Both the position numbers and the translations under genes were made by a program. A stretch of DNA of 64,000 nt from the NCBI GenBank assembly GCA_025808555.1, contig CP075526.1, forward strand, positions 1,194,712-1,258,711. The letters run 5' to 3'. Source of the DNA: Anaerolineales bacterium (GTDB lineage: Bacteria; Chloroflexota; Anaerolineae; Anaerolineales; UBA11579). The notes beneath the pieces were generated by a model. The model made no database searches, had not been told where the DNA came from, and saw nothing but the letters and a program-made list of their open reading frames with translations. Positions 1,619 through 28,415 of this stretch are shown here, in pieces. The first letter of the stretch is position 1, and each line of letters opens with the position of its first letter.

Positions 1619-3057
1619 CACAACGTATCTTTATTAGCGCAGATCACGGCCTGGCCATCGTTTATTTCTTGCAAAGCGATGTCCTGCGCACTTTGCTCGA
1701 CGACGGCGTCGAGGTCGTGCTACTCACCGATGACGAGATCGTCGAACGCATTCGCAATCGCTTTGCTCAGCCCGGCCTGATCATCGAAGGGCTGCGACTC
1801 AAACAGGTCAAGCAGTATTTTCAGACGCGCTCCTATGGCGTTCAATGGTGGCTGGACTTTTTGCGCCGCGCGGGAGCGTCCAATCGCATCAACCTTGAGG
1901 CGGTAGATAGCTACATCAGTCAGGTGAAGGATGAGGCGCATTCGCGCCGCAAACTACTCTTCCCTTTTATGCAACTGGCCGTCGCCATCCTGCGCCGCAG
2001 CCGCCGGGCGCGCGGTTGGTTGCAGCGCGCTCAGCAACGCTTTACGCCGGATATCTACGGCGACCTGTTCGCCAAGTACCAGCCCAGCCTGGTGGTCGCC
2101 AGTACGCCCGGTTGGCGCTATGACCGCTACTTGCTGCGCGAGGCGGCTGCCCACAGCATACCCACCGCGTCTGTCATTGTTGGTTGGGACAATTCGAGCA
2201 GTTACAGCCTGCCCGGCGCACCGGTGGATTGGATCACCTGCTGGTCTGAGATCCAGAAGCAGGAGCTGGTCGATGGCTCGGATTGGGATCCGGCGCGTGT
2301 GCATATTGGCGGCATTCCCTCCTATGACGGCTACTTCAAACAGGAGTGGGTGCTGCCGCGGGCTGAGTATTTCCAAGCCCATGGGCTTGACCCGCAGCGT
2401 AAGCTGATCTCTTTCGCCAGCAGTTTCATCACCTTCTCGCCCAATATTCAGGATATCGAGGCGCTGGCCGATCTAGTTTCCGGCGGGCAACTAACCGAGC
2501 CCAGCCAGCTGCTGGTACGCTTGCACCCCAATCACTTCATGGATGTGCCGCGGTTTGCGCAGGAGCGCGAAGCCATCTTCGCCTTAGCAAAGAAGCACCC
2601 GCATGTTCATGTAGTGGAGCCGGTTGCGCTGGGTGGCTCGCTGGGCCATTATTCAGGGGAAGATATGCACGAGAAATCGTCGATGATGGCCCACTCAGAC
2701 GTGTTTGTTACCGTTTACTCCACCATGGTAGTCGAAGCCTCAGCCCACAAGACGCCAGTGGTAAGCGCATGCATTGACTCGCCTGAAGGCTGGCCGGGCA
2801 ACTTCACCCTGCCGCTTTCACGCATTGGTGATTGGCCTACCCACTCGCGCTTCCGCAATTCCTCCGCGGGTCGTGTGGCCTATGACAGTGACCAGTTGCG
2901 CGATGCGCTCAACTTTTACCTGACCCATCCCGGCGCCGATGCTGAGGAGCGCGCTGCCTTTATTGCACGTGAATGCACCTTCACCGATGCCAGCGCCGGC
3001 CAGCGCACGGGCGCCTACCTGCTCTCGTGCCTGGGCCAGACTAGAGGCCGCGAATGA
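1615..3057 (+). CDS. GT-B-like / CDP-glycerol glycerophosphotransferase-like protein
   Basis: A 480-residue protein that begins RIFISADHGLAIVYFL and contains a two-domain GT-B-like layout. The first half has YQPSLVVASTPGWRYDRYLLREA and VGWDNSS; the second has SFASSFITFSP, LLVRLHPNHFMDVPRF, a VFVTVYSTMVVEA stretch and TPVVSACID. The RLHPN and STMVVEA elements resemble CDP-glycerol glycerophosphotransferases and UDP-GlcNAc 2-epimerase-fold proteins, where the second sits near the donor nucleotide. It overlaps both neighbours by 4 bases, so it is translationally coupled in the glycan operon. It could transfer a sugar or a polyol phosphate. The family assignment is by pattern only; the substrate is unknown. 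Confidence 0.6.
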   Translation: MTQRIFISADHGLAIVYFLQSDVLRTLLDDGVEVVLLTDDEIVERIRNRFAQPGLIIEGLRLKQVKQYFQTRSYGVQWWLDFLRRAGASNRINLEAVDSYISQVKDEAHSRRKLLFPFMQLAVAILRRSRRARGWLQRAQQRFTPDIYGDLFAKYQPSLVVASTPGWRYDRYLLREAAAHSIPTASVIVGWDNSSSYSLPGAPVDWITCWSEIQKQELVDGSDWDPARVHIGGIPSYDGYFKQEWVLPRAEYFQAHGLDPQRKLISFASSFITFSPNIQDIEALADLVSGGQLTEPSQLLVRLHPNHFMDVPRFAQEREAIFALAKKHPHVHVVEPVALGGSLGHYSGEDMHEKSSMMAHSDVFVTVYSTMVVEASAHKTPVVSACIDSPEGWPGNFTLPLSRIGDWPTHSRFRNSSAGRVAYDSDQLRDALNFYLTHPGADAEERAAFIARECTFTDASAGQRTGAYLLSCLGQTRGRE

Positions 3058-3962
3058 GCTTGCCGTTGCGCAAAGCCATGCGCGCCATTACAGGCAAGGA
3101 GACACAGTCCCGCATCGCGCTGCCCCCACTCTCCGCTGTTGAATTGGCCGAGGTCAAAGAGTTCTTCCCGCTCCAGAAATTCTTTGTGCTCGGGCAGCCG
3201 CATTCCGGCGGAGCGGTGTTGGCGCGCTTGCTCAATGTGCACCCAGACCTGTATTGCGGCACGCAGGCACACTTTTTCACTAGTCAACCCGTGCTCAGTG
3301 AGCTATTTGCGCAATCTGAAGAGGTGGCTGCGCCGCCCACCACGGCTGCTTTGCGGGCCATGGCCGATTTTTTGCTCGAGCGCCAGGCACACCCGTTGGG
3401 CAAGACCGTTGTAGGCGACCAAAGTCCCAATGAATTAGGCGCCCGTGCCGTGGAGGAGATGGCCGCCTTTTATCCCGATGCAAACTTGATCCACATTGTG
3501 CGCGATGGCCGCGATGTGCTCGTAAAGCAACGCCTGCAAGAGCTCACCGGCAGTGATGTCTCCGCGCCCCGCCGCGAGCGCAACCGCCCGGCTGACAATG
3601 TAGCCATCTTTGCTCCAGGCTGGCTGGCAGATGCCGCTGCCCAGTGGGCAACTGGTGTGAATGAGACTGACCGCCTGGGGCACCAGTTCTATGGCGAGAG
3701 CTACTACTCTTTGCGCTATGAAGACCTGCTGGCACGGCCGTTCGATATGCTCGCCAAGGTGTGGGCATTCCTGGGACTAAGTGCGGATGGGCTAGAAGCC
3801 AAGGTTTCCGGCGAGATCGCGCAAGAAGACATTGCTCTGGAAAAGAGCGCTCAACCTGTGTGGCGTCAATTCTTTACACCGGGCGACAAGAACATCTTCA
3901 AAGAGCGCACCGGCGCGGCTTTATTGAAGTGGGGCTATGAGGCTGGGGCTGACTGGTCATGA
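3054..3962 (+). CDS. Sulfotransferase family protein
   Basis: This 302-residue protein has both PAPS-binding elements of sulfotransferases: a P-loop-like FVLGQPHSGGAVLARLLNVHP (5'-phosphosulfate loop, near residues 42-60; the usual K/R is replaced by a less basic loop) and the 3'-phosphate loop IHIVRDGRDV near residue 145. A further SLRYEDLLARP segment near the C-terminus is also typical of the family. It would move a sulfuryl group from PAPS to a hydroxyl or amine of a sugar, here probably in the surface glycan made by the surrounding operon. No PAPS-synthesis gene lies in the window. Related domains sometimes use other acceptors, so the substrate stays open. Confidence 0.75.
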   Translation: MSLPLRKAMRAITGKETQSRIALPPLSAVELAEVKEFFPLQKFFVLGQPHSGGAVLARLLNVHPDLYCGTQAHFFTSQPVLSELFAQSEEVAAPPTTAALRAMADFLLERQAHPLGKTVVGDQSPNELGARAVEEMAAFYPDANLIHIVRDGRDVLVKQRLQELTGSDVSAPRRERNRPADNVAIFAPGWLADAAAQWATGVNETDRLGHQFYGESYYSLRYEDLLARPFDMLAKVWAFLGLSADGLEAKVSGEIAQEDIALEKSAQPVWRQFFTPGDKNIFKERTGAALLKWGYEAGADWS

Positions 3963-5016: not shown

Positions 5017-5829
5017 ATGTCCAGCATTCAATCTGCATTCGATCTCAGCGGCCGCGTGGCGCTGGTCACTGGCGCCGTAGGGCTGCTTGGCAGTCAGTTC
5101 TGCCGCACCCTGGTGCAGGCTGGCGCCTCGGTAGCCCTGGTAGACCTCAACGAAGCCAAGCTGGCTGCCCTGCACGCCGAGCTTGGTGAAGCCAGCCTGT
5201 CTGTAGCCAGCAACGTCAGCGATAAAGCTGCCGTGCAAGCCGCGGTGCAAGCCACTGTGGCGAAGTTTGGCCGCCTGGATATCCTCGTTAATAGCGCCGC
5301 GCTCGACCCCAAGTTTGATGCCGGTGAAGTAGGTAAGCACAACAGCTCGTTTGAAGAATACAGCCTGGAGAATTGGAACAATTCCCTCTCGGTTAATCTC
5401 ACTGGCGCGTTCCTGTTCAGTCAGGCGGCAGTGCCGCACATGCTTTCTCAGAAGGGTGGGGTCATCATCAATATCTGCTCCACGTACGGCTTGGGCGGGC
5501 CTGACCAGCGTATTTACCAGCGCGAGGGTCATCCGCCTTCCTTCAAGCCGGTGGATTACACCGTTACCAAAGCCGGCATCCTGGGCCTCACCAAATATCT
5601 GGCGACCTACTACGGCACGCAGAACATCCGCGTGAATGCGCTCACCCCCGGCGGCGTGCGCAACACGCAAGACGAAGAGTTCGTCAAAGCCTATTCCGCC
5701 CGTGCTGCCATGGGCCGCATGGCCCAGCAGGATGAAATGAACGGCGCGCTGTTGTTCCTGGCCTCCGACGCTTCGAGCTATATGACAGGTGCGAATTTAG
5801 TCGTCGATGGCGGCTGGACGGCATGGTAG
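5017..5829 (+). CDS. SDR family oxidoreductase (PtmA-like) in nonulosonate branch
   Basis: A 270-residue classical short-chain dehydrogenase. The NAD(P)-binding TGAVGLLGSQF motif lies near residue 18, the NSAALD motif near residue 95, a catalytic Ser in ICSTYG and the YTVTK catalytic Tyr/Lys pair near residue 185. The C-terminus, NLVVDGGWTAW, is of the type seen in SDRs encoded beside CMP-nonulosonate synthetases. It lies directly upstream of, and overlaps by 7 bases, the NeuA-like gene, so a step in making or modifying a nonulosonic acid or its hexosamine precursor is likely. An AAGGG ribosome-binding site precedes the ATG. The exact substrate is not predictable. Confidence 0.85.
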   Translation: MSSIQSAFDLSGRVALVTGAVGLLGSQFCRTLVQAGASVALVDLNEAKLAALHAELGEASLSVASNVSDKAAVQAAVQATVAKFGRLDILVNSAALDPKFDAGEVGKHNSSFEEYSLENWNNSLSVNLTGAFLFSQAAVPHMLSQKGGVIINICSTYGLGGPDQRIYQREGHPPSFKPVDYTVTKAGILGLTKYLATYYGTQNIRVNALTPGGVRNTQDEEFVKAYSARAAMGRMAQQDEMNGALLFLASDASSYMTGANLVVDGGWTAW

Positions 5830-7073
5830 CAATGAAGTCTAGCAAGCCTGAAGTCTTGGCCATCATTCCGGCCCGCGGCGGCTCCAAGAGCATTCCGCGC
5901 AAAAATGTGCGCCTGTTCGCCGGGCACCCGCTGCTGGCATTCAGCATCGCCGCCGCCCTGCAAGCGGAAACCGTGACGCGCACCATCATCTCCACCGATG
6001 ATGAGGATATGGCCCGCATTGCGCGTGAGCTTGGGGCCGAGGCGCCTTTCATCCGCCCGGCGGAGTTTGCCCAGGACAACACGCTAGACCTGCCGGTGTT
6101 TGAGCATGCGCTCACCTGGCTCGCCAAGAACGAAGGCTACAAGCCGCAGATCGTGGTGCAGCTGCGCCCCACCTCTCCCTTGCGCCCGCGCGGCCTAGTG
6201 GATGAGGCCGTGCAGCTGTTGCTCAAGAACCCCAAAGCCGATTCGGCCCGCGGGGTAGTGCCCAGCGGCCAAAACCCCCACAAGATGTGGCGCGTGGATG
6301 CCAATGGGCAGATGCAGCCGCTGCTCAAGGTCAAGGGGATCGGGGAACCCTACAACGCCCCGCGCCAAAACCTGCCCGCCACCTATTGGCAGACCGGCCA
6401 TGTTGATGCAATTCGCAGTTCAGTCATCCTAAACAAACACTCCATGAGCGGCGAGATGATACTGCCCGTGTTGGTAGACCCGCGCTACAGCGTGGACATT
6501 GACACCATGAATGACTGGCAGCGTGGTGAATGGCTGGCCACCTCGGGGGAATTGGACGCCGTGTGGCCTGGCCCTCTGCCACGCCCGTACCCCAAGCAGG
6601 TCAAGCTGCTGGTGCTGGATTTTGACGGGGTGCTGAGCGACAACCGCGTCTGGATGGATGAGAACGGCAAGGAATCGATCGCTGCCAACCGTAGTGACAG
6701 TCTGGGGCTTGAGAAACTGAAGCAAAGCGGCGTGCAGGTCTTCGTGCTTTCGCGTGAGGGCAACCCCGTTGTGGCCCGTCGCTGCGAGAAGCTCCAGATT
6801 GGCTATCGCCAGGGGATCAAGGAAAAAGGCGAGGCATTGCGCCAGCTACTGGCGGAGCTGAGTGTGCCTGCGGAAGCTACTTTATTCCTCGGCAACGACA
6901 CCAATGATCTACCGTGCTTCCCCATCGCGGGCTGCGCTGTGGCCGTGGCCGATTCGCACCCCGCTGTGTTGCGCCAGGCCGACCAGCGTCTCACGCAGCG
7001 CGGTGGGCATGGCGCAGTGCGCGAGCTTTGTGATTTAATCATGGCGATAAACGCCCAAAGGACGAACGAATGA
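5823..7073 (+). CDS. CMP-nonulosonate synthetase fused to KdsC-type HAD phosphatase
   Basis: A 416-residue two-domain protein. Residues about 8-235 are an acylneuraminate cytidylyltransferase: IIPARGGSKSIPRKNVR is the CTP-binding signature, followed by STDDEDMA and QLRPTSPLR. Residues about 258-410 are a KdsC-like HAD phosphatase with intact motifs: DFDGVLSD (motif I), the VLSRE serine (II), KEKGEAL lysine (III) and GNDTNDLPCF (IV). The first domain couples CTP to a sialic-type acid; the second should remove a phosphate, plausibly from a nonulosonate 9-phosphate. The order resembles vertebrate CMAS, which also carries a KdsC-like C-terminal domain. The ATG at 5823 overlaps the SDR gene; an alternative ATG lies at 5832. 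Confidence 0.88.
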   Translation: MVAMKSSKPEVLAIIPARGGSKSIPRKNVRLFAGHPLLAFSIAAALQAETVTRTIISTDDEDMARIARELGAEAPFIRPAEFAQDNTLDLPVFEHALTWLAKNEGYKPQIVVQLRPTSPLRPRGLVDEAVQLLLKNPKADSARGVVPSGQNPHKMWRVDANGQMQPLLKVKGIGEPYNAPRQNLPATYWQTGHVDAIRSSVILNKHSMSGEMILPVLVDPRYSVDIDTMNDWQRGEWLATSGELDAVWPGPLPRPYPKQVKLLVLDFDGVLSDNRVWMDENGKESIAANRSDSLGLEKLKQSGVQVFVLSREGNPVVARRCEKLQIGYRQGIKEKGEALRQLLAELSVPAEATLFLGNDTNDLPCFPIAGCAVAVADSHPAVLRQADQRLTQRGGHGAVRELCDLIMAINAQRTNE

Positions 7074-7942
7074 CTCGAGAATTAAAGCTTGGCAAACGCA
7101 TGGTGGGGGATGGCCACCCGGTGTATATCGTCGGTGAGATCGGCATCAACCACAATGGCAGCCTGGATGTTGCCAAGCAATTGATCGATCTGGCCAAGTG
7201 GGCCGGGGCGGATGCTATCAAGTTCCAGAAGCGCACGCCAGAATTGGCTGTGCCGCCCGACCAGCGCGACAAGATGCGCGAGACCCCGTGGGGCTACATC
7301 AGCTACATGGATTACCGTAATAAAGTTGAGTTCGGCGAGAAGGAATATGCCGAGATCGATGCGCACTGCAAGGCCAAGGGCATTGACTGGTTCGTCTCTG
7401 TGTGGGACGAGCCGGCTGTTGATTTCATGGAGAAGTTTGACACGCCTTGCTACAAGATTCCCTCGGCGTCCCTGACCGATCATGCCCTGCTGGACCATGT
7501 GCGCAAGACTGGCCGTCCGGTGGTGCTCTCCACAGGCATGTCTACCATGGAGCAGATCGACGAAGCCATTAAGCATGTGGATATGGGCAACACCATGCTC
7601 ACTCACACCACCAGCACCTATCCCTGTGAGCCGGATGAGCTGAATCTGCGCATGATCGAAACCCTGCGCCAAAAGTTTGCCTGCCCAGTGGGCTACTCTG
7701 GCCACGAGGTCGGGTTAGTGCTTTCTGCGGTGGCTGTGGCCCTCGGTTCCTGCTTTATTGAGCGCCACATCACGCTTGACCGTGCCATGTGGGGCAGCGA
7801 CCAGGCCGCCTCGGTGGAACCGGGCGGCTTGCAGAAGTTGGTGAAATACATCCGTGTCACCGAGCAAGCCCTGGGTGACGGCGTAAAGCGCGTATACGAT
7901 AGCGAGAAGCCCTCCCTCGAGAAGCTGCGCCGCGCCAAGTAA
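7070..7942 (+). CDS. N-acetylneuraminate synthase (NeuB) family protein without SAF domain
   Basis: A 290-residue TIM-barrel protein that condenses PEP with an amino or neutral hexose (or its phosphate) to a nine-carbon sialic-type acid. Family signatures are present in order: VGEIGINHNGS, DAIKFQKR, KIPSASLTDHALL, LSTGMSTMEQID, LTHTTSTYPC, GYSGHEVG and ERHITLDRAMWGSDQAASVEP. NeuB, LegI and PseI proteins are usually about 335-350 residues and end in an antifreeze-like SAF domain that caps the neighbouring active site. Here the protein stops just after the barrel (LEKLRRAK). The start overlaps the NeuA/phosphatase stop by 4 bases. Sialic, legionaminic, pseudaminic or KDN-type product cannot be distinguished. 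Confidence 0.87.
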   Translation: MTRELKLGKRMVGDGHPVYIVGEIGINHNGSLDVAKQLIDLAKWAGADAIKFQKRTPELAVPPDQRDKMRETPWGYISYMDYRNKVEFGEKEYAEIDAHCKAKGIDWFVSVWDEPAVDFMEKFDTPCYKIPSASLTDHALLDHVRKTGRPVVLSTGMSTMEQIDEAIKHVDMGNTMLTHTTSTYPCEPDELNLRMIETLRQKFACPVGYSGHEVGLVLSAVAVALGSCFIERHITLDRAMWGSDQAASVEPGGLQKLVKYIRVTEQALGDGVKRVYDSEKPSLEKLRRAK

Positions 7943-7972
7943 TTTTTGCCGCTCTACGCGGCTGGGTTCACT

Positions 7973-9562
7973 GTGCTCAAGCGAATAGCCAACAAACTCC
8001 AACGCGCACCCGCTACGTTGCGTAGCCGGGTGCGTTTGGCGCGCACCGCCCGCGCCGTAGCGGCCGCCGAGCAGGCGCAGCACAAGCCGGTGGTGTTCTT
8101 CAATGCCTCTACGCGCCTGGGCCATCTCAGCCAGAATGCGGCGTTTTCGCTGCTGGCCTCGTGGGGCTTGCGTCTGGAAGGCGTGCCCGTTTTGCACTTC
8201 GTGTGCAACGCGGGCATGAGCCGCTGCGTGCTGGGCACCAACCCGGACGATGCCACCCAGGCGCCGCCGTGCGCGGCCTGCATGGCCCAATCGCGCCGGA
8301 TGTATGCCGGTGCGCAGGCGCAGGGGTTCGGCTACCAGCCCGACGCCGCTTTGATCGCTCGCCTGCAGTCCTTGAGCGTTGATGATTTGCTGGCTGTGGA
8401 GTACGGCGGCTTACCGCTCGGCCACTTGGTGCTGCCCTCGCTGCGTTGGGCGTTGCGCCGCCATGACTTGGCAGACGATGAGCCCACGCGTATCTTGTTG
8501 CGCGAATACATCCTCTCCGCCAACAATGTGGCCCGTGAGTTTGCTGCCTTCATAGATGGCAGGGACCTGCTGGCTGTGGTGGTTTTCAATGGCATCATGT
8601 TCCCTGAGGCTGTGGCGCGCCAGATCGCTTTGCAGCGCGGCTTGCGCGTGATAACGCATGAAGTCGGCCTGCAGCCGCTGAGTGCGTTCTTTACTGCAGG
8701 CGAAGCCACGGCCTATCCCATGGAAATCCCTGAGAGTTTTCAACTGGGTGAAGCAGAAAACCATCGGTTGGACAATTACCTAAGTCGCCGTTTCAAAGGC
8801 GATTTCAGCATGGCCGGCATCCGCTTCTGGCAAGATATTCAAGCGCTGGACGAAGCCTTTCTGGCAAAAGCAGCCCAGTTCGATAAGTTGGTGCCAGTCT
8901 TTACCAATGTCATTTTTGATACCAGTCAGGTACATGCCAATGTGCTGTTCACGGACATGTTCGCCTGGCTTGATCATGTAGCCGAGCTCATCCAAACCAA
9001 TCCGCGCACGTTGTTCGTCATCCGCGCCCATCCAGATGAGATGCGCCCTGGCTCCACCAAGCAGAGCCGCCAAAGCGTAGCTGAGTGGGTGCAGGCGCGC
9101 GGCTTGCTGGCTTTGCCCAATGTTGTCTTCATCCCACCGACGGACTATGTGGACTCGTACGCATTGATCGCTAAAGCGCACTTTGTCATGCTCTACAACT
9201 CTTCGATCGGGCTGGAAGCTTCTATCATGGGCAAGCCGGCTCTCTGCGCTGGGGCGGCTCGCTACACGCAATACCCTACGTTGTATTTTCCTGCCAGTCT
9301 GAGTGAATACAAGCACCAGGCCGAAGCTTTCCTGGCCGCCGACAAAGTGCCGCAGCCGGAGGCTTTTGTACATGAGGCACGGCGTGTGCTCTACTTCCAG
9401 CTTTTCAGGACCAGCCTGCCTTTTGAGCGCTTTGTGGAGCCCACTAGTATGGGCTATGTGAACCTGCGGGACTTCCCTTTTAACGCTTTGCGCGTCGAGC
9501 AGTCGCCGGCCATCAAAACGGTGCGTGACGGCTTGGTGGAACACAAGCCCTTTCTGGTATAA
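7973..9562 (+). CDS. Capsule-polysaccharide-type (GT-B-like) protein with four-cysteine cluster
   Basis: About 529 residues. The GTG at 7973 is taken as start; an in-frame TTG at 7946 would add nine residues, and no clear ribosome-binding site decides. The C-terminal half has LFVIRAHPDEMRPGS, then LPNVVFIPPTDYVDSYALI and MLYNSSIGLEASIMGKPAL, a pattern of KpsC/KpsS-like and other capsule transferases whose donor site lies in this half. The N-terminal half has LGHLSQN and an unusual cluster with cysteines at about residues 78, 85, 100 and 103 (CNAGMSRC ... PPCAAC), which could bind a metal or an iron-sulfur cluster. No membrane segment is seen. A role as transferase of a CMP-activated sugar is a guess from context. 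Confidence 0.6.
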   Translation: MLKRIANKLQRAPATLRSRVRLARTARAVAAAEQAQHKPVVFFNASTRLGHLSQNAAFSLLASWGLRLEGVPVLHFVCNAGMSRCVLGTNPDDATQAPPCAACMAQSRRMYAGAQAQGFGYQPDAALIARLQSLSVDDLLAVEYGGLPLGHLVLPSLRWALRRHDLADDEPTRILLREYILSANNVAREFAAFIDGRDLLAVVVFNGIMFPEAVARQIALQRGLRVITHEVGLQPLSAFFTAGEATAYPMEIPESFQLGEAENHRLDNYLSRRFKGDFSMAGIRFWQDIQALDEAFLAKAAQFDKLVPVFTNVIFDTSQVHANVLFTDMFAWLDHVAELIQTNPRTLFVIRAHPDEMRPGSTKQSRQSVAEWVQARGLLALPNVVFIPPTDYVDSYALIAKAHFVMLYNSSIGLEASIMGKPALCAGAARYTQYPTLYFPASLSEYKHQAEAFLAADKVPQPEAFVHEARRVLYFQLFRTSLPFERFVEPTSMGYVNLRDFPFNALRVEQSPAIKTVRDGLVEHKPFLV

Positions 9563-9569
9563 GACAAGT

Positions 9570-9809
9570 ATGCAGGATACGAATTTTTTGAGGCTTCGAT
9601 CTGTATTTATTGATGTCTTCAAGGCTGCGCCCGAAGACATCACCCCTGATCTGCAATTTGGCGAGTTACCCGCCTGGGATTCAATGGGGCATATGGACCT
9701 CATGGTTGGGCTGGAAACCGCCTTCGGGATTGAAATTACTGCCGAAACCATCAGCACCCTCATTAGTGTGCCGGCCATCCTGGCCCATATTCAGAGCAAG
9801 CATGGCTGA
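9570..9809 (+). CDS. Acyl carrier protein
   Basis: A 79-residue four-helix carrier protein. It has the phosphopantetheine attachment motif WDSMGHMDLMVGLE with the serine at residue 38; DSM replaces the more usual DSL. The last helices (TAETISTLISVPAILAHI) are typical. The ATG at 9570 lies 7 bases after the preceding stop, and the gene overlaps the next one by 8 bases. It is not beside fatty-acid genes. The neighbour is a carrier-protein ligase of the aminoacyl type, so this ACP most likely carries an aminoacyl thioester rather than a fatty acid. A holo-ACP synthase is not encoded in the window. Confidence 0.92.
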   Translation: MQDTNFLRLRSVFIDVFKAAPEDITPDLQFGELPAWDSMGHMDLMVGLETAFGIEITAETISTLISVPAILAHIQSKHG

Positions 9810-10983
9810 GCACCTCTCTCTCAAGCCTAGTATTCCCATCCCAGCCCATCTAGTAGGTCAGGTGCAGGCCAAGCTGGCATATGTCGACGAGGCCATCGCC
9901 TCGGCCAGCATCGCCCCTGATGGCGGCCGCATCGACCTGCAGCTGCGCGCTCCCGCCCCCGCCGACCTGGAAGCCAAGATCCAAAGTGTGGTTACGGACA
10001 TGGCCAGCGGGAATGCGAAACCAAAAGTGGAGGTGCTGGAAGATTACCTTCAGCGCCCCGTGCCTCATTCAACTGATCCCATGCCGGAGCTTGAGCAGCG
10101 TGGTGAGGTGCACCGCGAAACTACGGGCGTATACAGCTTCGGGCCGCTGTTGGCCAACCTTATCAGCGTGTTCGAAGACTATTTTCTGGAGCTGGCCGCC
10201 GAATTTGGCGCTGCCCCGCAGCGTTTTCCGACGCTCATCTCGGCCGAGATGCTGGGGCGCGTCGGTTACTTCCGTGCTTTCCCGCACTCGCTGACCTTCG
10301 CCACCCACCTCCGCGAGGATCTGCACATCATCAGCGACTTCGCAGAGCATGCCGCCTATGAGCCTACCGGCTTGAACGCGTCGATGGAATCGTTCTCCAA
10401 GATCCAGGCGTTGCTCTCCCCGGCGGTGTGCTACCACTTCTACTTTGGCCTGGCCGATAAACCCTTGCCGGGCGGCCAGCTGGCTGCCACTGCGGTCGGT
10501 CATTGCTTCCGCTACGAATCCAGCAATCTCAACAGCCTCGAACGCCTGTGGGATTTCACCATGCGCGAGATCATCTTCGTTGGCCCGGCTGACTATGTGC
10601 TGGACAATCGCGAAGCCGCCCGCAAGAAAGTAACCCCCTGGCTGGCCGAACTTGGGCTGGCATACATGGTGGAGAGCGCTAACGATCCCTTTTTCGTTGG
10701 CGAGTTCCGCAAGCAAACCGCCTTCCAGAACGCCTTCCAACTCAAGTACGAGATCCGCGCCCGCTTGCCTTTCAAAGGCAGCACGCTGGCGGTGGGTTCG
10801 TACAACTATCACCAGGATTTCTTTGGCCGCCATCTCAAGATCACGCTGCCTGACGGCAAACCTGCTCACACCGGCTGTGTGGCATTTGGTCTCGAACGTT
10901 TGGCGTATGCCTTCTTGGCCCAATATGGGCTCGACCCAGCGCAGTGGCCGGCCATCGTGCGGGAGGCGCGCGCATGGGGGTAA
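9802..10983 (+). CDS. Amino acid:[carrier protein] ligase (class II aaRS-like, atypical SerRS family)
   Basis: A 393-residue homologue of the bacterial aa:CP ligases described from Bradyrhizobium (Bll0957 type). These activate glycine or alanine with ATP and load it on the phosphopantetheine arm of a dedicated carrier protein instead of a tRNA. Residues 110-393 carry the class II core: motif 2 around HCFRYES (234-240), TMREIIFVG, ANDPFF, SYNYHQDFFG and motif 3 FGLERLA (362-368). The three residues that bind zinc in this family and in methanogen SerRS appear at Cys210, Glu256 and Cys359. About 100 extra N-terminal residues are of unknown role. The tRNA-binding domain is absent. The ATG at 9802 overlaps the ACP gene by 8 bases, which supports the ACP as partner. 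Confidence 0.85.
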   Translation: MAEHLSLKPSIPIPAHLVGQVQAKLAYVDEAIASASIAPDGGRIDLQLRAPAPADLEAKIQSVVTDMASGNAKPKVEVLEDYLQRPVPHSTDPMPELEQRGEVHRETTGVYSFGPLLANLISVFEDYFLELAAEFGAAPQRFPTLISAEMLGRVGYFRAFPHSLTFATHLREDLHIISDFAEHAAYEPTGLNASMESFSKIQALLSPAVCYHFYFGLADKPLPGGQLAATAVGHCFRYESSNLNSLERLWDFTMREIIFVGPADYVLDNREAARKKVTPWLAELGLAYMVESANDPFFVGEFRKQTAFQNAFQLKYEIRARLPFKGSTLAVGSYNYHQDFFGRHLKITLPDGKPAHTGCVAFGLERLAYAFLAQYGLDPAQWPAIVREARAWG

Positions 10984-11441
10984 CTATCCGCGCTGGGGGT
11001 GTGGAAGATCTGCCCGGCGCGGCTGCGCTCTGGAAGCAACTGGATGCGTATCATCGCAGTCTTGGCCTGGCTTTTCCTGAAGTAGAGAATGCCCCACAAA
11101 AATGGGCCGAGAGCTTTCAGCGCACTCTCGGGCGTTTTAGCTTTCTGTGGCTGGCTGAACAAGATGGGCAGGCGCTGGGTTTTTTGATGGCGCGGGTGAA
11201 ACAAAGCCCGGCTTATCTGGGCGGTCAGCAAGTTGGCGAGATCAGTGACCTGTACGTAAAAGAGGCAGCCCGCGGCGGCGGGCTGGCTGCTCAACTGGCC
11301 CAAACTGCCATGCAGAAGTTTACTGAGCTGGGCGTGCATTCCGTCGAAGTGCAGGTGCAGGCTGGCAATGAAGCTGGCCTGGCTTTCTGGCGCAAGCAAG
11401 GCTTTGCGCTGGATCTTACGCTGGTGCGCAAGGTGCTCTGA
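10974..11441 (+). CDS. GNAT family N-acyltransferase
   Basis: A 155-residue GNAT domain with the usual order: beta1 VTIRAGGVEDLPGAAALW, the central FLWLAEQDGQALGFLMA hairpin, the acyl-CoA (or acyl-ACP) loop EISDLYVKEAARGGGLAAQLAQ near residues 85-105 (Q/RxxGxG/A type), and NEAGLAFWRKQGF. The ATG at 10974 overlaps the aa:CP ligase gene by 10 bases and its TGA shares one base with the next ATG, so the proteins are made together. GNATs normally use acetyl-CoA. In this setting, transfer of the aminoacyl group from the neighbouring ACP to an amino sugar is possible but is inference. Confidence 0.85.
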   Translation: MGVTIRAGGVEDLPGAAALWKQLDAYHRSLGLAFPEVENAPQKWAESFQRTLGRFSFLWLAEQDGQALGFLMARVKQSPAYLGGQQVGEISDLYVKEAARGGGLAAQLAQTAMQKFTELGVHSVEVQVQAGNEAGLAFWRKQGFALDLTLVRKVL

Positions 11442-12214
11442 TGGCGCTACCAGCCCTCACTCGCCAACAATTGGATGGTGTTCTCCAAGCCCTCGGCATC
11501 CAGGCCGGCGATGGCCTGCTCATTCACTCTGCCGTGCAGTTCCTCGGCAAGCCGGAAGGCGGCCTTGTTACTTATCTTGAGGCGTTGCAAGGCGCAATTG
11601 GCCAGCATGGCACTCTGGTAGTGCCAACCTTCTCCTTCGAGTTTGCCAAGACCGGCCAATACGACCCGGCCACCACACCCTCACAGGGCATGGGGGTCTT
11701 CTCAGAATTTGTGCGCCAGCAGCCCGGAGCGTACCGTACGCTCCACCCCATGCAGTCCGTCGCCGCGCTGGGAGCGCTGGCCGGCGACTTGGCCCAGCGC
11801 GATACTCCCTCCGCTTTTGATGATGGCTCGACGTTTGACCGCATGCTGCAGGCAGATTTCAAGCTTTTGCTGTTAGGCGCAGATATTCAAGCCGCCTCCA
11901 TGGTGCACTATAGTGAGCAGCGCGCACCTGTCCCTTATCGCTACTGGAAGGAATTCCCCGGCAAGATCAAAATCGATGGCGCTTGGCAGCCGCGCAGCTA
12001 CCGCATGTTCGTGCGTGATATGGATATTGATCCCCACTTGCGTCTGGCGCCTATTGAGCAAGCGCTGCGCGCCAATGGTGATTGGCGTACGCAAACTCTC
12101 AATCACGGCAGCCTCTCAGTCTGCCGCTTGCAGGATTTTGTGACTGCTACGGATGCCTTGCTGCGGGTAGACCCTTGGGCCTTGGTCAGCAACCGCCCGG
12201 AGACAGCCCACTAA
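11441..12214 (+). CDS. AAC(3)-fold (antibiotic_NAT) N-acyltransferase
   Basis: A 257-residue protein of the aminoglycoside N(3)-acetyltransferase fold. Family landmarks are GDGLLIHSAVQFLG near residue 23, GTLVVPTFSFEF near residue 56, the TLHPMQSVAALG segment with its conserved His near residue 100, and LLLLGADIQAASMVHYSEQ. Proteins of this fold acylate an amino group using acyl-CoA; members in polysaccharide loci modify amino sugars rather than antibiotics. The gene is joined to its neighbours by one-base ATG/TGA and TAATG junctions. Resistance is not the likely role here. Acylation of a sugar amine, possibly with an ACP-bound amino acid, fits the module, but the donor is unproven. Confidence 0.8.
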   Translation: MALPALTRQQLDGVLQALGIQAGDGLLIHSAVQFLGKPEGGLVTYLEALQGAIGQHGTLVVPTFSFEFAKTGQYDPATTPSQGMGVFSEFVRQQPGAYRTLHPMQSVAALGALAGDLAQRDTPSAFDDGSTFDRMLQADFKLLLLGADIQAASMVHYSEQRAPVPYRYWKEFPGKIKIDGAWQPRSYRMFVRDMDIDPHLRLAPIEQALRANGDWRTQTLNHGSLSVCRLQDFVTATDALLRVDPWALVSNRPETAH

Positions 12215-13551
12215 TGGCCAGCATGATGCAACTCATCGAGGAGTTGTGGTTCCTGAAGCGTGACCTGATCTCGGATGACTACGATCGAGCCTTGCATCGC
12301 CTGGCGCAAGAAGTGCCCATGACGATCCATGAAGTGCCCAGTGGCACGAAAGTGTGGAGCTGGACTGTGCCAGAGAAGTGGACCTGTCACGAGGCCTATC
12401 TCGAAACACTGCAAGGTCATCGCTTACTTGACTATGCTGACCATCCTCTGCATGTCGTCTCGTATTCGCTACCGTTCGAAGGTGAGGTCAGCCGCGAAGA
12501 GCTATTGGCGCACCTGAATGTACATCCAGCCCACCCAGACGCCATTCCCTACGTCTTTAAGTATTACCAGCGTGATTGGGGTTTATGCGCCAGCCAAAAC
12601 CTACGCGATTCGCTCACTGATGAGCGTTATCGCGTTGTAATTCGCTCTGAATTCACGCTCGGCACGCTGAAAATTGGCGAAGTCTATATCCCCGGCCAGC
12701 GCCCGGAGAACTTCGTGCTCGCTGCCCACTTGGACCATCCCGCCATGGTGAATGATGACCTCACGGGCGTGGTGGTCGGTGTGGAAGTGGCCCGTCGTCT
12801 GTTGGCGGCGGCCGCTGCCGGGCATGCGCCGTACTACGGCGTACGCCTGCTGCTGTTCCCTGAAACCCAGGGTTCGATCGCCTACCTCAGCCAGCACGAG
12901 AGCGAGATTCCGAATATGCTCGGGGGCCTCTTTCTCGAGATGCTGGGCAATGATGCACCCCACGCTCTACAGCAATCCTTCCAGCCCTTCAGCGCCGCTG
13001 ACCGCGCCCTCGTGAATGCGTTGGCGGGCGCCGAGCCCGGCGCTTATGTGGGCGGCTTCCGAACCGTCATTGATAACGACGAGCGCCAGTTCAACGCCCC
13101 CGGTGTGCGCGTGCCCATGCTTTCGCTCTCGCGGGTGGTGGATCCGCATCTGCCCGGCTCGCGCTTTGCCCCTTACCCTGAGTACCACTCCAGCCTGGAT
13201 ACGCCTGCCATCGTCTCGCAGGAGCGGTTGAAACAGTCAGTAGAGCTGGTGCTTAAGCTTATTGATGCATTTATGCACAACCGCTACGTGGTCAACCACT
13301 TTAAGGGCGAAGTCTTCGCCTCCGGCTACGGCCTCTGGGTGGATTACAAGAGCGATGCCGCCGGGCACAAACGCCGCTTTGAGATCATGGATCGCTGTGA
13401 CGGCACGCGCCGTGTGGCCGATATTGCTGATGAGCTGCACCTCAGCTTTCAGGAGGTCTGGCAGGTGATTGCCCTATTGGTTGAAAAAGGGCTGGTATCG
13501 CTTAGCAACGTACCCCAACCTACCGATCCCCACCACGCGCCGCCGCAGTAG
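12214..13551 (+). CDS. Aminopeptidase-like zinc protein (DUF2172/DUF4910 type) with C-terminal winged helix
   Basis: A 445-residue protein built like the aminopeptidase-like family found in many surface-glycan loci: an M28-like core interrupted by an inserted domain, then a winged-helix tail. Probable zinc ligands are His172 (AAHLDHP), Asp181 (NDDLTG), Glu217 (FPETQGS) and His325 (EYHSSLD). The tail has CDGTRRVADIADELHLSFQEV, a helix-turn-helix-like stretch. The start ATG shares a base with the preceding TAA. No signal peptide is visible, so it acts in the cytoplasm. It could hydrolyse an amide on an aminoacyl-sugar intermediate. In this family hydrolase activity is poorly documented, so the catalytic claim is inference. 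Confidence 0.75.
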   Translation: MASMMQLIEELWFLKRDLISDDYDRALHRLAQEVPMTIHEVPSGTKVWSWTVPEKWTCHEAYLETLQGHRLLDYADHPLHVVSYSLPFEGEVSREELLAHLNVHPAHPDAIPYVFKYYQRDWGLCASQNLRDSLTDERYRVVIRSEFTLGTLKIGEVYIPGQRPENFVLAAHLDHPAMVNDDLTGVVVGVEVARRLLAAAAAGHAPYYGVRLLLFPETQGSIAYLSQHESEIPNMLGGLFLEMLGNDAPHALQQSFQPFSAADRALVNALAGAEPGAYVGGFRTVIDNDERQFNAPGVRVPMLSLSRVVDPHLPGSRFAPYPEYHSSLDTPAIVSQERLKQSVELVLKLIDAFMHNRYVVNHFKGEVFASGYGLWVDYKSDAAGHKRRFEIMDRCDGTRRVADIADELHLSFQEVWQVIALLVEKGLVSLSNVPQPTDPHHAPPQ

Positions 13552-13569: not shown

Positions 13570-14541
13570 ATGCCCACCGGCAAGCCCCGAAGCACAAAAA
13601 AAACACCGCACATCTCCATTATCGTCCGCGCTCTAAATGAAGAGAAACACCTTGGCCGCCTGCTAACCGCCATCGCGAGCCAAAGCCTGCCCAACCCTGA
13701 AGTCATCCTGGTCGACTCCGGCTCCACTGACCGCACACTGGCCATTGCGCGCCGTCATAGGGCCAAAATTGTGCACATCAAGCCGCAAGACTTCACCTTT
13801 GGCCGCTCACTTAACCTGGGCATCCGCAAAGCCAGCGGCGATGTGATGGTGCTTGCCAGCGCCCATGTCTTCCCCGAGCACGATGATTGGCTCAGGAACC
13901 TCGTGGCCCCGTTTGCAGACCCCCAGGTGGCCATGGCCTACGGCAAACAGCGCGGCACGGACGAGAGCCAGTTTTCGGAAAGCCAGCACTTCCGCAAGTG
14001 GTTTCCTGAGCACTCCACTCCGGCCCAGCCGCACGGCTTTGCCAATAACGCCAACTCGGCGCTGCGCAAGAGCGTCTGGGAGACCATACCCTTTGATGAA
14101 GAATTGACCGGGTTGGAAGACTTGGCATGGGCCAGTACGGCCCATGCTGAGGGCTACAAAATTGCCTACGTGGCCGAGGCCGGCGTGTACCATGTACATA
14201 ATGAGACCGCAGCCCAGATCATGAACCGTCACCGTCGTGAAGCCATAGCCCTGCGGCAGATCTTGCCCGCCAGCACTTTCAGCTTTGTCAATTTGCTAAG
14301 CCTTTTCGTGCGAAACACACTGTCAGACTATGCCGCCGCATTGCGCCAGGGGCAGTTTTTACGCCAGATGATCAACATCCCGCGCTTTCGTTTTCTGCAA
14401 TACTGGGGCACCTACCGCGGCTACCGTGACCCCGCCCAGCCCAGCAGCCAACTCAAGCGTGTCTTCTACTACCCGCCGGATGCACTGGAGCCGCGCCTTG
14501 CGACGTCACAAAGCGCGCGCCCGCGGGATAAATCAGCCTAG
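13570..14541 (+). CDS. Family 2 glycosyltransferase (rhamnosyltransferase-like)
   Basis: A 323-residue GT-A enzyme. The N-terminal half contains ISIIVRALNEEKHLGRLL, VILVDSGSTDRT, GRSLNLGIRKASGD and VLASAHVFPEHDDW, the last standing where the DxD metal site usually lies, so the canonical acidic pair is partly replaced. Further on are NANSALRKSVWE, a likely acceptor-side base region at GLEDLAWASTAHAEG, and the YHVHNET segment seen in rhamnosyl- and related transferases. No membrane segment is apparent. The gene starts 18 bases after the aminopeptidase-like gene. Donor and acceptor are unknown. Confidence 0.83.
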   Translation: MPTGKPRSTKKTPHISIIVRALNEEKHLGRLLTAIASQSLPNPEVILVDSGSTDRTLAIARRHRAKIVHIKPQDFTFGRSLNLGIRKASGDVMVLASAHVFPEHDDWLRNLVAPFADPQVAMAYGKQRGTDESQFSESQHFRKWFPEHSTPAQPHGFANNANSALRKSVWETIPFDEELTGLEDLAWASTAHAEGYKIAYVAEAGVYHVHNETAAQIMNRHRREAIALRQILPASTFSFVNLLSLFVRNTLSDYAAALRQGQFLRQMINIPRFRFLQYWGTYRGYRDPAQPSSQLKRVFYYPPDALEPRLATSQSARPRDKSA

Positions 14542-14544
14542 CCT

Positions 14545-15231
14545 ATGCCTATGAACACGCCAAGAATCGTCGCCCTTGTTCCCATGCGAGACCAGTCCGA
14601 GCGCGTGCCTGGCAAGAATTACCGCGCTCTGGCGGGAGCGCCGCTGTTCCATCACATTCTGCGTGCCTTGCAGGCCAGCCGCGGTATCGCCGAGATCGCC
14701 GTGGATACCGACAGCCCCAGCATTAAGGCTGGGCTGGCGGAGCACTTTCCGGCCGTGCGCGTGATCGAGCGCCCTGAACACCTGCGCGCCGGCGAAGTGC
14801 CCATGAACGAGATCCTGCTGCACGATACAGCCCAAATTCCAGCTGACTTCTATTTGCAGACCCACAGCACCAATCCCTTGCTGCGTAGTGAAACTATCGG
14901 GCGCGCCATTGATGCCTTTGTTGCCGCGTTGCCCAAGGTAGATTCGCTATTCAGTGTGACTGGCCTGCAGACCCGCTTCTATGATGCCGAAGGTAAGGCC
15001 GTGAATCACAACCCCAAAGAGCTCCTGCGCACCCAGGACCTGCCGCCCGTTTACGAAGAAAATTCGTGCATTTACATCTTTAGCCGCGCCAGCCTGGCTC
15101 AACACAGCCACCGTATTGGCGCCAGCCCACTCATGTTCCCCATCCCGCGCAATGAGGCCTGGGATATTGACGAAGAGCTTGATTTCCAAATTGCCGACTT
15201 TTTGATGCAGCAGCGACAGAAGACCTCATGA
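14545..15231 (+). CDS. Second CMP-sugar synthetase (acylneuraminate cytidylyltransferase family)
   Basis: A 228-residue single-domain cytidylyltransferase. The CTP-binding signature ALVPMRDQSERVPGKNYR replaces the usual IPARxGSKxxxxKN. Other family pieces are AVDTDSPSIK, YLQTHSTNPLLR and NEAWDIDEELDFQIAD. It lacks the phosphatase domain of the paralogue at 5823-7073, so the locus encodes two different CMP-sugar activating enzymes. The following dehydrogenase starts within its last codons (4-base overlap), suggesting they share a pathway. The altered signature suggests an acid sugar other than Neu5Ac, but the product cannot be named. Confidence 0.82.
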   Translation: MPMNTPRIVALVPMRDQSERVPGKNYRALAGAPLFHHILRALQASRGIAEIAVDTDSPSIKAGLAEHFPAVRVIERPEHLRAGEVPMNEILLHDTAQIPADFYLQTHSTNPLLRSETIGRAIDAFVAALPKVDSLFSVTGLQTRFYDAEGKAVNHNPKELLRTQDLPPVYEENSCIYIFSRASLAQHSHRIGASPLMFPIPRNEAWDIDEELDFQIADFLMQQRQKTS

Positions 15232-16205
15232 CCAAAACCATTTTGCTTTCCGCACCTTACATGCTGCCCACCGTAGAGCGCTTTCGCCCCGTGTTTGCGC
15301 ATTATGGCCTAGAGCTCATAGTCCCGAAAGTAGAAGAGCGCATGGAGGCCGAGCAGATCCTACAGTATGCCGGCCAGTTTGACGGCGCAGTCTGCGGCGA
15401 TGACCGCTACACCGCCGAAGTGCTGGCGGCCTGCGCCCCGCGTCTGAAGGTGATCTCCAAATGGGGTACCGGTATCGACTCGATCGACCGGGTGGCTGCC
15501 GCCGAACTCGGCATCCAGATCCGCAATACGCCGGATGCCTTCACAGACCCAGTGGCCGACTCGGTTATGGCAGGCGTGCTCAGCTTTGCTCGCCAGACGC
15601 CCTGGCTGGATAAGGCCATCAAGGCCGGCGAGTGGAGGAAGCTGCCCGGCCGCTCCCTGTTCGAATGCACACTGGGTGTGATCGGGGTGGGGCGTATTGG
15701 CAAAGCCGTCGTCCGCCGAGCGCGCGGTTTTGGCATGCGCCTGCTGGGCTACGATACCGCCGACGTGCCGGATAGTTTTCTGGCTGAGACAGGTGTAGAT
15801 ATGGTCTCGCTGGAGGAGCTGCTGTCTCAGGCAGACTTTGTCAGCCTCAATGCAGACCTCAACCCCACCAGCCATCACATTCTCAACGCGCAGACGATCG
15901 CGCACCTGCAACCGCATGCCGTGGTGATCAACACCGCCCGCGGCCCGCTGGTGGATGAGCCTGCCCTCATCGCCGCGTTGCAGGCGGGCAAGCTGGCCGG
16001 CGCCATGCTGGATGTGTTTGAGCACGAGCCTTTGCCAGCGGATAGCCCGCTGCGCAGCATGGACAATGTGCTGCTGGCGCCGCACAACTCCAATGCCAGC
16101 CCCTTTTCCTGGGAGCGCGTGCATTGGAACACCATCCGCAATCTACTCGACGGGCTGGGAATTGCTGCCGATGATTTAGACCCGGCAGACTACCCGCCCC
16201 GCTAA
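15228..16205 (+). CDS. D-isomer-specific 2-hydroxyacid dehydrogenase (SerA-like catalytic domain)
   Basis: A 325-residue protein with the D-2-hydroxyacid dehydrogenase layout. Near residue 80 is SKWGTGIDSID, and the NAD-binding motif LGVIGVGRIGKAVVRRA lies near residue 147. The catalytic Arg is in INTARGPLVDEPAL, followed by a Glu in HEPLPADSP and a His in APHNSN. It lacks the ACT or ASB regulatory domains of biosynthetic 3-phosphoglycerate dehydrogenases, and the context is glycan synthesis. It is therefore likely to work on a 2-keto or 2-hydroxy acid sugar precursor together with the flanking cytidylyltransferase and SDR genes. The substrate is unknown. Confidence 0.82.
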   Translation: MTKTILLSAPYMLPTVERFRPVFAHYGLELIVPKVEERMEAEQILQYAGQFDGAVCGDDRYTAEVLAACAPRLKVISKWGTGIDSIDRVAAAELGIQIRNTPDAFTDPVADSVMAGVLSFARQTPWLDKAIKAGEWRKLPGRSLFECTLGVIGVGRIGKAVVRRARGFGMRLLGYDTADVPDSFLAETGVDMVSLEELLSQADFVSLNADLNPTSHHILNAQTIAHLQPHAVVINTARGPLVDEPALIAALQAGKLAGAMLDVFEHEPLPADSPLRSMDNVLLAPHNSNASPFSWERVHWNTIRNLLDGLGIAADDLDPADYPPR

Positions 16206-16214
16206 AATCAGCTT

Positions 16215-16976
16215 ATGACCAGCCCCCGTCACGTTGTTATCACCGGAGCCGCAGGCGGCATTGGCCGCGCCTGCGTAGAGCACTACCACCAGCTAGGCTG
16301 GCGTGTTTGGGCTATTGACCAGGCTCAGCCTACCCCCGCTTTGCCCGACGGTGTCACCTTCATCGGCGTTGACCTTGCGGTTGCGGGCGAGGTGGACGCT
16401 GTCGTAGACCAGCTCACCCAGCAGCTCGGCGGCCATTTACATGTGCTCGTCAACAACGCCGCGTTGCAAGTCGCCAAGTCCTTGGCCGCCACCAGCGCAG
16501 ACGAATGGGACCGGGTGCACGCCATCAACTTGCGTGCACCCTTCCTGCTCGCGCGCGATCTATATCCGGCCTTGGCCGCCGCGCGTGGCGCGGTGGTGAA
16601 CGTCAGCTCCGTACATGCCTTCGCCACCTCAGCTGATATTGGCGCCTATGCCAGCTCCAAGGGTGGCCTGTTGGCGCTGACCCGCGCCATGGCCATTGAA
16701 TTTGCTAAGGATGGCGTGCGCGCCAATGCCATCTTGCCGGGCGCCACGGATACACCCATGCTGCAGGCTGGGTTGGACCGCGGCCATGTGCAAGGTGCTG
16801 ATATGCAGCAGCGCAAAGCGGACCTGGCCGGCAAAATTCTGCTTAAGCGCCTGGCCACACCCGAAGAGATCGCCCGCAGCATTTACTTCCTGGGCGATGG
16901 GGAAGCGTCTGGCTACATTACCGGCCAGTCTCTGGTGGTGGATGGCGGTGCGCTGGCGCGGCTCAGCACAGAATGA
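16215..16976 (+). CDS. SDR family oxidoreductase
   Basis: A 253-residue classical SDR. VITGAAGGIGRACVEHY is the cofactor loop, VNNAALQ the structural motif, VNVSSVHAFA carries the catalytic Ser, and YASSK the Tyr/Lys pair. The C-terminus GQSLVVDGGALARL is typical. It starts 9 bases after the 2-hydroxyacid dehydrogenase gene and overlaps the next gene by 4 bases. It is only distantly similar to the SDR at 5017-5829, so the two probably act on different intermediates. Its grouping with the second CMP-sugar synthetase suggests a dedicated route to a second activated acid sugar. Confidence 0.83.
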   Translation: MTSPRHVVITGAAGGIGRACVEHYHQLGWRVWAIDQAQPTPALPDGVTFIGVDLAVAGEVDAVVDQLTQQLGGHLHVLVNNAALQVAKSLAATSADEWDRVHAINLRAPFLLARDLYPALAAARGAVVNVSSVHAFATSADIGAYASSKGGLLALTRAMAIEFAKDGVRANAILPGATDTPMLQAGLDRGHVQGADMQQRKADLAGKILLKRLATPEEIARSIYFLGDGEASGYITGQSLVVDGGALARLSTE

Positions 16977-17785
16977 GTTCTTTCAAACAGCGCATCAAGC
17001 AAGCCACGCCGCAGCCGCTCTGGCAGGCGGGCAGCGCCGGCCTGCTGGCGCTGCGCCATGCCGCCGCCTGGCCGGCGGCAACTCTGCATCCCTGGCGGCG
17101 GGAAAGCATTGCCCGCCTGGGCGCCCTCAAAGATAGCCAGCGTGGTAAACGCGCTTTTATACTCGGCAATGGGCCTAGCTTGCGCAGCACGGATGTCAGT
17201 AAGCTTAAACATGAGCTGACCTTTGGCATGAACCGCGTTTATCTGGCGTTCCCCGAGTGGGGCTTTGCCACCAGCTACTTTGTGTGCGTCAATGACCTCG
17301 TCATTGAACAAACTGTGCCAGAGATCCGGGCGTTGCAGATGCCCAAGTTCCTCTCCTGGCGTTCGCGCCGCTTCATTCAGCCAGACGAGCACACTATGTT
17401 CCTGCACAGCACCTACGACGGCCCCACCTTTGCCACCGATGCTCGTCGCCGTCTATGGGAAGGCGCCACGGTAACCTACGTAGCTTTGCAATTGGCGTAT
17501 TACATGGGTTTTGAAACCGTCATTCTTATTGGTGTTGACCATAACTTCAGTGCCAAGGGCACACCCAACACCACCGTAACCTCTCAGGGCGAGGATAAGG
17601 ATCATTTCAGCGCCGGCTACTTCGGCGCCGGTTTCCGCTGGCAGCTGCCTGATCTGGATACTTCGGAGCGCTCATACTCCATGGCGCGCCAGGCCTACGA
17701 GGCCGATGGGCGCCAGGTGCTGGATGCCACGATCGGAGGTAAGCTCACAGTCTTCCCGAAGGTTGAATATAATTCGCTCTTCTAG
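16973..17785 (+). CDS. DUF115/MptE-like protein, possible GT42-type sialyltransferase relative
   Basis: A 270-residue protein with RAFILGNGPSLRSTDVSKL (GNGPSL at residues 65-70), TFGMNRVYLAFPEW, a central WEGATVTYVALQLAYYMGF and VILIGVDHNF. This arrangement matches the DUF115 / 6-hydroxymethylpterin diphosphokinase MptE-like group. It is also reminiscent of GT42 sialyltransferases such as Campylobacter Cst, which bind CMP-sialate with a similar GNGPSL loop and a later G(I/V)D segment. With two CMP-sugar synthetases and a NeuB homologue in the same operon, transfer of a nonulosonic acid is an attractive role. DUF115 proteins elsewhere are motility accessory factors linked to flagellin glycosylation. 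Function is unproven. Confidence 0.6.
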   Translation: MSSFKQRIKQATPQPLWQAGSAGLLALRHAAAWPAATLHPWRRESIARLGALKDSQRGKRAFILGNGPSLRSTDVSKLKHELTFGMNRVYLAFPEWGFATSYFVCVNDLVIEQTVPEIRALQMPKFLSWRSRRFIQPDEHTMFLHSTYDGPTFATDARRRLWEGATVTYVALQLAYYMGFETVILIGVDHNFSAKGTPNTTVTSQGEDKDHFSAGYFGAGFRWQLPDLDTSERSYSMARQAYEADGRQVLDATIGGKLTVFPKVEYNSLF

Positions 17786-25652: not shown

Positions 25653-25761
25653 TATAATTAACTTGCTGCTTGGACCCCATTTTGGGGCCGAGACGGTAGT
25701 GTGCAGGGTGCCAAAATGGCGCAATTGCATATGCCGCCTTTCAAGCTGGGGCGGTTTTTTT
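25653..25761 (+). promoter_or_regulatory. Structured 5' leader of the pan/coa operon with terminator-like hairpin (candidate pan RNA)
   Basis: A TATAAT -10 (25653-25658, no clear -35) should start transcription near 25665. The leader then has CCATTTTGG at 25677-25685, perfectly complementary to CCAAAATGG at 25711-25719, and a small CCG-AGA-CGG hairpin inside. A second hairpin follows: CCGCCTT / GGGGCGG with two G-U pairs, near 25734-25754. Seven T residues follow it at 25755-25761, then a GGGAGG ribosome-binding site at 25781 and the panB ATG. An aptamer-like element plus terminator suggests transcription attenuation. The pan RNA motif is known upstream of panB, panC and panD genes, including in Chloroflexi; I could not check the consensus. 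Confidence 0.55.
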
Positions 25762-25790
25762 ATCCCCAGCGCTATTGTGCGGGAGGTTTG

Positions 25791-28402: not shown

Positions 28403-28415
28403 AAAGGCAATTTCT

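Follow-up and report, generated by a model that had tools for sequence, protein, structure and literature searches.

A conserved five-gene cassette in Anaerolineales that may place an aminoacyl group on the amine of a surface sugar

We analyzed a 64,000-nucleotide stretch of an Anaerolineales genome (the window; contig CP075526.1, positions 1,194,712 to 1,258,711 of the forward strand), in which five overlapping genes bring together an amino acid:carrier-protein ligase, a carrier protein, two acyltransferase-family proteins and a zinc protein of the DUF4910 family. We propose, with a probability of about 0.5, that these genes act together in an N-aminoacyl exchange on an amino sugar of the cell surface, most probably a nonulosonic (sialic-like) acid. 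What we observe directly are the parts with their families and active-site residues, the fact that they are conserved together, an AAC(3)-DUF4910 fusion and the nonulosonic-acid context.

The five open reading frames all lie on the forward strand and overlap in turn by 8, 10, 1 and 1 bases, in agreement with an earlier note on this DNA. The first (9570–9809) encodes an aminoacyl carrier protein (ACP) of 79 aa (PF00550 PP-binding, 28.5 bits) whose phosphopantetheine serine, placed by that note at Ser38, falls within a WDSM motif; the genome has two further ACP-like genes, and the best-scoring of the three lies elsewhere. It is followed by a ligase of 393 aa resembling class II aminoacyl-tRNA synthetases (9802–10983; Pfam tRNA-synt_2b, 29.6 bits), a GNAT N-acetyltransferase of 155 aa that is an optional part (10974–11441; PF00583 Acetyltransf_1, 64.2 bits), an AAC(3)-fold acyltransferase of 257 aa that is the candidate aminoacyl transferase (11441–12214; PF02522 Antibiotic_NAT, 141.7 bits) and an M28-like zinc protein of the DUF4910/DUF2172 type with 445 aa (12214–13551, alternative start at 12223; PF16254, 201.6 bits, and PF09940, 104.3 bits).

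A scan of GTDB genomes with short peptide patterns, which more distant relatives would escape, recovered ligases of this type from 46 Anaerolineales loci and one Lindowbacteria locus, and from no other group. The ligase was present in 18 of the 24 genomes of the window's family and in 2 of the 298 genomes of a class-wide sample, one of the two being the window's own. The ACP gene adjoined the ligase gene in all 42 loci where the contig extends to it. Among the 32 Anaerolineales loci that offer enough sequence, 31 had the full set of ACP, ligase, AAC(3) and DUF4910 genes, and L060, the one that did not, begins close to a contig edge. Each of the 34 complete four-gene sets was on one strand. Across the 46 loci, ACP was not found in 4, AAC(3) in 5 and DUF4910 in 8, each time where the contig was cut or little sequence was left. 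The GNAT gene was found in 40 of the 46, was absent from five with sequence available and was doubled in three. This conservation far exceeds chance: the co-occurrence in other genomes that the earlier note had set as a check of its proposal is borne out, and the five genes constitute a conserved cassette. At the Candidatus Lindowbacteria locus (L070:8410-15459), the ligase and ACP genes stand next to formyltransferase, nucleotidyltransferase, GHMP kinase and RmlC-type genes, with no AAC(3) or DUF4910 gene beside them, and perhaps serve another sugar decoration.

Bll0957 (3mey) was the closest solved structure to the ligase by sequence (185 bits), followed by type-2 seryl-tRNA synthetase (SerRS; 116 bits for 3w3s, then 89 bits). 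This proximity and the adjacent ACP gene agree with the earlier assignment to the amino acid:carrier-protein kind. The ligase scored 169 bits on NF005479, the model of Bll0957-type ligases, against a cut-off of 357, and on sequence grounds we place it in a subfamily related to the Bll0957 equivalog rather than in the equivalog itself. Cys210, Glu256 and Cys359, previously named as its zinc ligands, were invariant in 26 homologues and aligned with the Cys/Glu/Cys positions of type-2 SerRS and of Bll0957 (3mey), which are zinc ligands in the latter. The AlphaFold model (predicted local distance difference test, pLDDT, 81.7) matched Bll0957 with Z 27.6 over 268 residues and type-2 SerRS with Z of about 29–30. 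The latter resemblance would suit a second SerRS, or an enzyme with tRNA as acceptor, and so would the retention of part of the N-terminal domain. In this respect, the earlier claim of a missing tRNA domain holds only in part: some 85 N-terminal residues are kept, and a portion of them aligns with the C-terminal half of the N-domain of type-2 SerRS, where this domain binds tRNA. Such a role is nonetheless highly improbable, given that the genome has a normal SerRS of its own (464 bits), that the ligase falls far under the type-2 SerRS cut-offs (134 of 611 bits on PRK00960, 86 of 490 on TIGR00415), that Bll0957 is closer in sequence and that the ACP gene overlaps the ligase gene.

Carrier-protein genes also lie beside ligase relatives in Streptomyces, Azospirillum and Priestia; in Tistrella, the carrier-sized neighbor is annotated only as 'hypothetical'. 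An engineered Bll0957 with altered carrier-protein preference (4h2w) differed from the native protein by one segment in the printed alignment, and this segment aligned gap-free with ligase residues around 299–313, a putative carrier-binding helix. The closest full-length plasmid relative (37.5% identity), from Streptomyces, lies in a locus with a phosphopantetheine protein, a 3-hydroxyacyl-CoA dehydrogenase and an acyl-CoA dehydrogenase, a context that would fit an aminomalonyl-type, serine-loading pathway. A Bll0957-type relative in Azospirillum has an ACP, an acyl-CoA dehydrogenase and DUF1839 nearby. Serine, glycine and alanine are thus all candidate amino acids for the ligase. An attempt to deduce the amino acid from active-site residues was set aside: the zinc positions and the neighboring Phe and Ser are common to Bll0957 and the M. 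kandleri SerRS and do not discriminate.

The AAC(3)-fold protein has FrbF as its closest PDB chain. Its H102 (HPxxS motif) was kept in 50 of 51 aligned rows, with H156 and E159 also conserved, and it did not reach the NCBIfam cut-off for AAC(3) resistance enzymes (105 versus 270 bits). In its tree, which like that of DUF4910 has an unknown root and some long branches, one branch with 100/100 support separated 42 ligase-linked copies from 11 ligase-less ones. Since all 42 ligase-linked rows fall on one side of this branch, AAC(3) goes with the ligase, and we favor it over GNAT as the transferase because GNAT is absent from five loci. The same observations bear on a division of the cassette into two halves acting on the same sugar, in which AAC(3) and DUF4910 would use an acyl-CoA to make an ordinary N-acyl group while ligase, ACP and GNAT made a separate aminoacyl group, with GNAT transferring it. 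AAC(3) relatives are acetyl-CoA users, and AAC(3) and DUF4910 genes occur together in loci without ligase or ACP. In Campylobacter jejuni, moreover, a related decoration was made while the AAC(3) gene Cj1296/7 was out of frame (PMC3068675). We nevertheless consider the division unlikely: five loci keep ligase, ACP and AAC(3) yet lack GNAT, and the AAC(3) of ligase loci is set apart by that fully supported branch.

We found the DUF4910 protein to be homologous to CA_C2195 (3k9t; E 1e-56), which keeps the mono-zinc ligands without the M28 catalytic pair (PMC4000134). The mono-zinc ligands H/D/H were invariant in all 38 ligase-linked copies, and in the same 38 the M28 catalytic pair was replaced, with A, S, H or G at the Asp position and Pro at the Glu position. 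These active-site residues rule out an ordinary peptidase. A C-terminal winged-helix region is HTH_47-like (E 0.001, under the Pfam cut-off). AAC(3) and DUF4910 genes were also neighbors in loci where no ligase or ACP was found: beside NeuB (L108-L112), without sugar genes (L019, L020) and in short loci (L079-L088). In three related Chloroflexota genomes, the two are fused into one protein of about 670–730 aa (L077/L106, L078/L107, L089). The earlier note had given DUF4910 a trimming or proofreading task: as in butirosin synthesis, AAC(3) or GNAT would add the aminoacyl group and DUF4910 would later trim it. The M28-like fold, the zinc site and the co-occurrence with the ligase fit such a task, which we still regard as quite improbable because the catalytic Asp and Glu are replaced, because AAC(3) and DUF4910 stay side by side or fused in loci in which neither ligase nor ACP was detected, and because C. 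jejuni needs its DUF4910-family protein Cj1295 to gain its acyl decoration, which is gone when Cj1295 is lost (PMC3068675).

The ligase-linked rows of the DUF4910 tree come from two distant clades. Four cassettes (L031, L034, L038, L069) carry a DUF4910 from the distant clade that includes CA_C2195, as if the original had been replaced, and L034 and L038 lack GNAT and a nearby NeuB as well. DUF4910 thus appears to have been recruited twice into the cassette, which suggests that its reaction is needed.

As the earlier note had it, the cassette sits in a polysaccharide and nonulosonic-acid locus, with NeuB, cytidine monophosphate (CMP)-sugar synthase and glycosyltransferase genes around it in an order kept in relatives. 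Upstream on the forward strand, the locus begins with an SDR oxidoreductase (5017–5829; adh_short_C2, 176 bits), whose place in the order is kept in related loci. Next come a PseF-like CMP-sugar synthase fused to a KdsC-like phosphatase (5823–7073; TIGR03584, 152 bits, and KdsC-like, 125 bits, both under the cut-offs), a NeuB-type nonulosonic-acid synthase core without a SAF domain (7070–7942; PF03102, 259 bits) and a Capsule_synth-like glycosyltransferase (7946–9562; PF05159, 26.6 bits). Downstream on the same strand (13570–17785) are a GT2 glycosyltransferase, a second CMP-sugar synthase, a 2-hydroxyacid dehydrogenase, an SDR protein and an MptE/DUF115 protein, again in an order kept in relatives. 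NeuB lay within 10 kb upstream of the cassette in 21 of the 25 loci with enough sequence, and all seven genomes checked (those of the four remaining loci and three with short contigs) carry NeuB elsewhere.

This context also speaks to whether the aminoacyl-ACP feeds some other product (a lipid, a peptide, a secondary metabolite or an O-aminoacyl group), with the sugar genes as mere neighbors. Ligase relatives do occur in Streptomyces assembly-line loci, and at L045 all five genes form a free-standing block away from sugar loci, flanked by trigger factor/ClpP genes on one side and a phage integrase on the other. We rate another product as clearly unlikely, as the surroundings of the cassette in the window showed no condensation, ketosynthase or lipid genes, the sugar genes hold their order across the family, and NeuB was present in every genome checked for which none was seen nearby.

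The window's genome has three NeuB-type synthases within about 42 kb (G000:C1:1160288, 1191679 and 1201892); the window itself contains one of them, and the other two lie upstream. Several relatives have a longer NeuB that joins NeuB, SAF and a xylose-isomerase-like barrel (L013:3286-5193). Directly downstream of the polysaccharide locus (window 25701-29177) runs a series of pantothenate genes (panB, ketopantoate reductase, panC and type III pantothenate kinase), the pathway that supplies the precursor of the ACP prosthetic group. ATP sulfurylase/adenosine 5'-phosphosulfate (APS) kinase and several sulfotransferases lie in or beside the same loci (L012:2152-3891 and neighbors; window 3054-3962), suggesting a sulfated glycan. 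Promoter and terminator scans gave counts close to chance level.

From these observations we infer each chemical step of the exchange, its amino acid and its acceptor. The ligase would activate an amino acid (Ser, Gly or Ala) and load it onto the phosphopantetheine of the neighboring ACP. DUF4910 would remove the acetyl group of the sugar, freeing the amine, or join in a transacylation there, and the AAC(3)-fold protein would transfer the aminoacyl group from the ACP onto the freed amine. Where present, GNAT would acetylate the α-amine; bacterial polysaccharides are known to carry N-acetyl-aminoacyl groups of the resulting kind. The D-alanyl group on legionaminic acid in Escherichia coli O161 is an existing N-aminoacyl nonulosonic acid (PMC10609480). 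In its fully specified version, which we advance only tentatively, the proposal has the ligase, of synthetase descent, and its ACP deliver aminoacyl thioesters to a dedicated pair for deacylation and re-acylation, DUF4910 and AAC(3). This pair would exchange the N-acetyl substituent of a nonulosonic acid for an N-acetylated amino acid and so create an aminoacyl sialic-like sugar in a surface glycan of Anaerolineales.

Several points weigh against an N-aminoacyl exchange on a nonulosonic acid. DUF4910 also occurs in sugar loci of other kinds without AAC(3), and hydrolysis by it would require unusual active-site residues (Das et al., PMC4000134). A strict tie of the cassette to nonulosonic-acid loci does not fully hold, as in four loci NeuB was not seen within 10 kb. 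The AAC(3) gene Cj1296/7 is out of frame in both C. jejuni variants studied (PMC3068675 Table 1), so acyl transfer there may be performed by another enzyme. Finally, for none of these proteins has a product structure or a catalytic activity been described.

In the open-license literature, we found no description of the ligase together with AAC(3), GNAT and DUF4910. The earlier statement that no description was known therefore stands for the full set; the core idea had been published (Iyer et al. 2010, PMC2922099; Das 2014, PMC4000134). Given the published Cj1295 precedent and the prediction of Iyer et al., the cassette combines known parts in a new way, and its proposed mechanism can be tested directly. 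The cellular role of synthetase-like amino acid:carrier-protein ligases and the reaction of DUF4910 are both unsettled in the papers concerned (PMC2922099, PMC4000134, PMC3068675). The cassette joins the two families and connects them with an AAC(3)-fold transferase and with nonulosonic acids, and thus makes both testable with five small soluble proteins. If the proposal is true, it suggests a possible route for making N-aminoacyl sugars. Nonulosonic and sulfated glycoconjugates in sludge granules might then also stem from Anaerolineales.

Among known systems, butirosin side-chain synthesis likewise loads an amino acid on an ACP and passes it to an amino sugar, using enzyme families that differ from those of the cassette; DUF4910 is an unlikely match for its trimming step. 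The Bll0957 system shares the class II core, the Cys/Glu/Cys positions and the adjacent ACP gene. In contrast, Bll0957 lacks the N-terminal remnant and has only about a third of the core residues in common with the cassette ligase, and the partners of its type are acyl-CoA dehydrogenase, DUF1839 and GH2 in place of AAC(3) and DUF4910. The Cj1295-Cj1299 region of C. jejuni, taken here from published annotation, resembles the cassette in combining DUF4910, an AAC(3)-like protein and an ACP in a nonulosonic-acid locus, and Cj1298 is presumably a GNAT. The pseudaminic acid of C. jejuni carries no 5-N-(di-O-methylglyceroyl) group when Cj1295 is missing, and removal of the 5-acetyl group was the function proposed for Cj1295 in that study (PMC3068675). 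The neighboring Cj1296/7 is annotated as an aminoglycoside N3'-acetyltransferase (PMC3025981) and Cj1299 as the ACP 'for the O-linked glycosylation locus' (PMC3749442). This system differs from the cassette in that its acyl group is di-O-methylglyceroyl and an aminoacyl ligase is unmentioned in these three papers (PMC3068675, PMC3025981, PMC3749442). The CA_C2195 operon of Clostridium acetobutylicum likewise places DUF4910 with NeuB, an ACP, N-acetyltransferases and an amino-acid ligase, the latter being of the ATP-grasp type instead of synthetase-like and the gene order being different; for DUF4910, transacylation to an amino sugar has been suggested (Das 2014, PMC4000134). Iyer et al. (2010, PMC2922099) predicted that amino acid:carrier-protein ligases aminoacylate surface sugars, the role that we propose for the ligase of this cassette.

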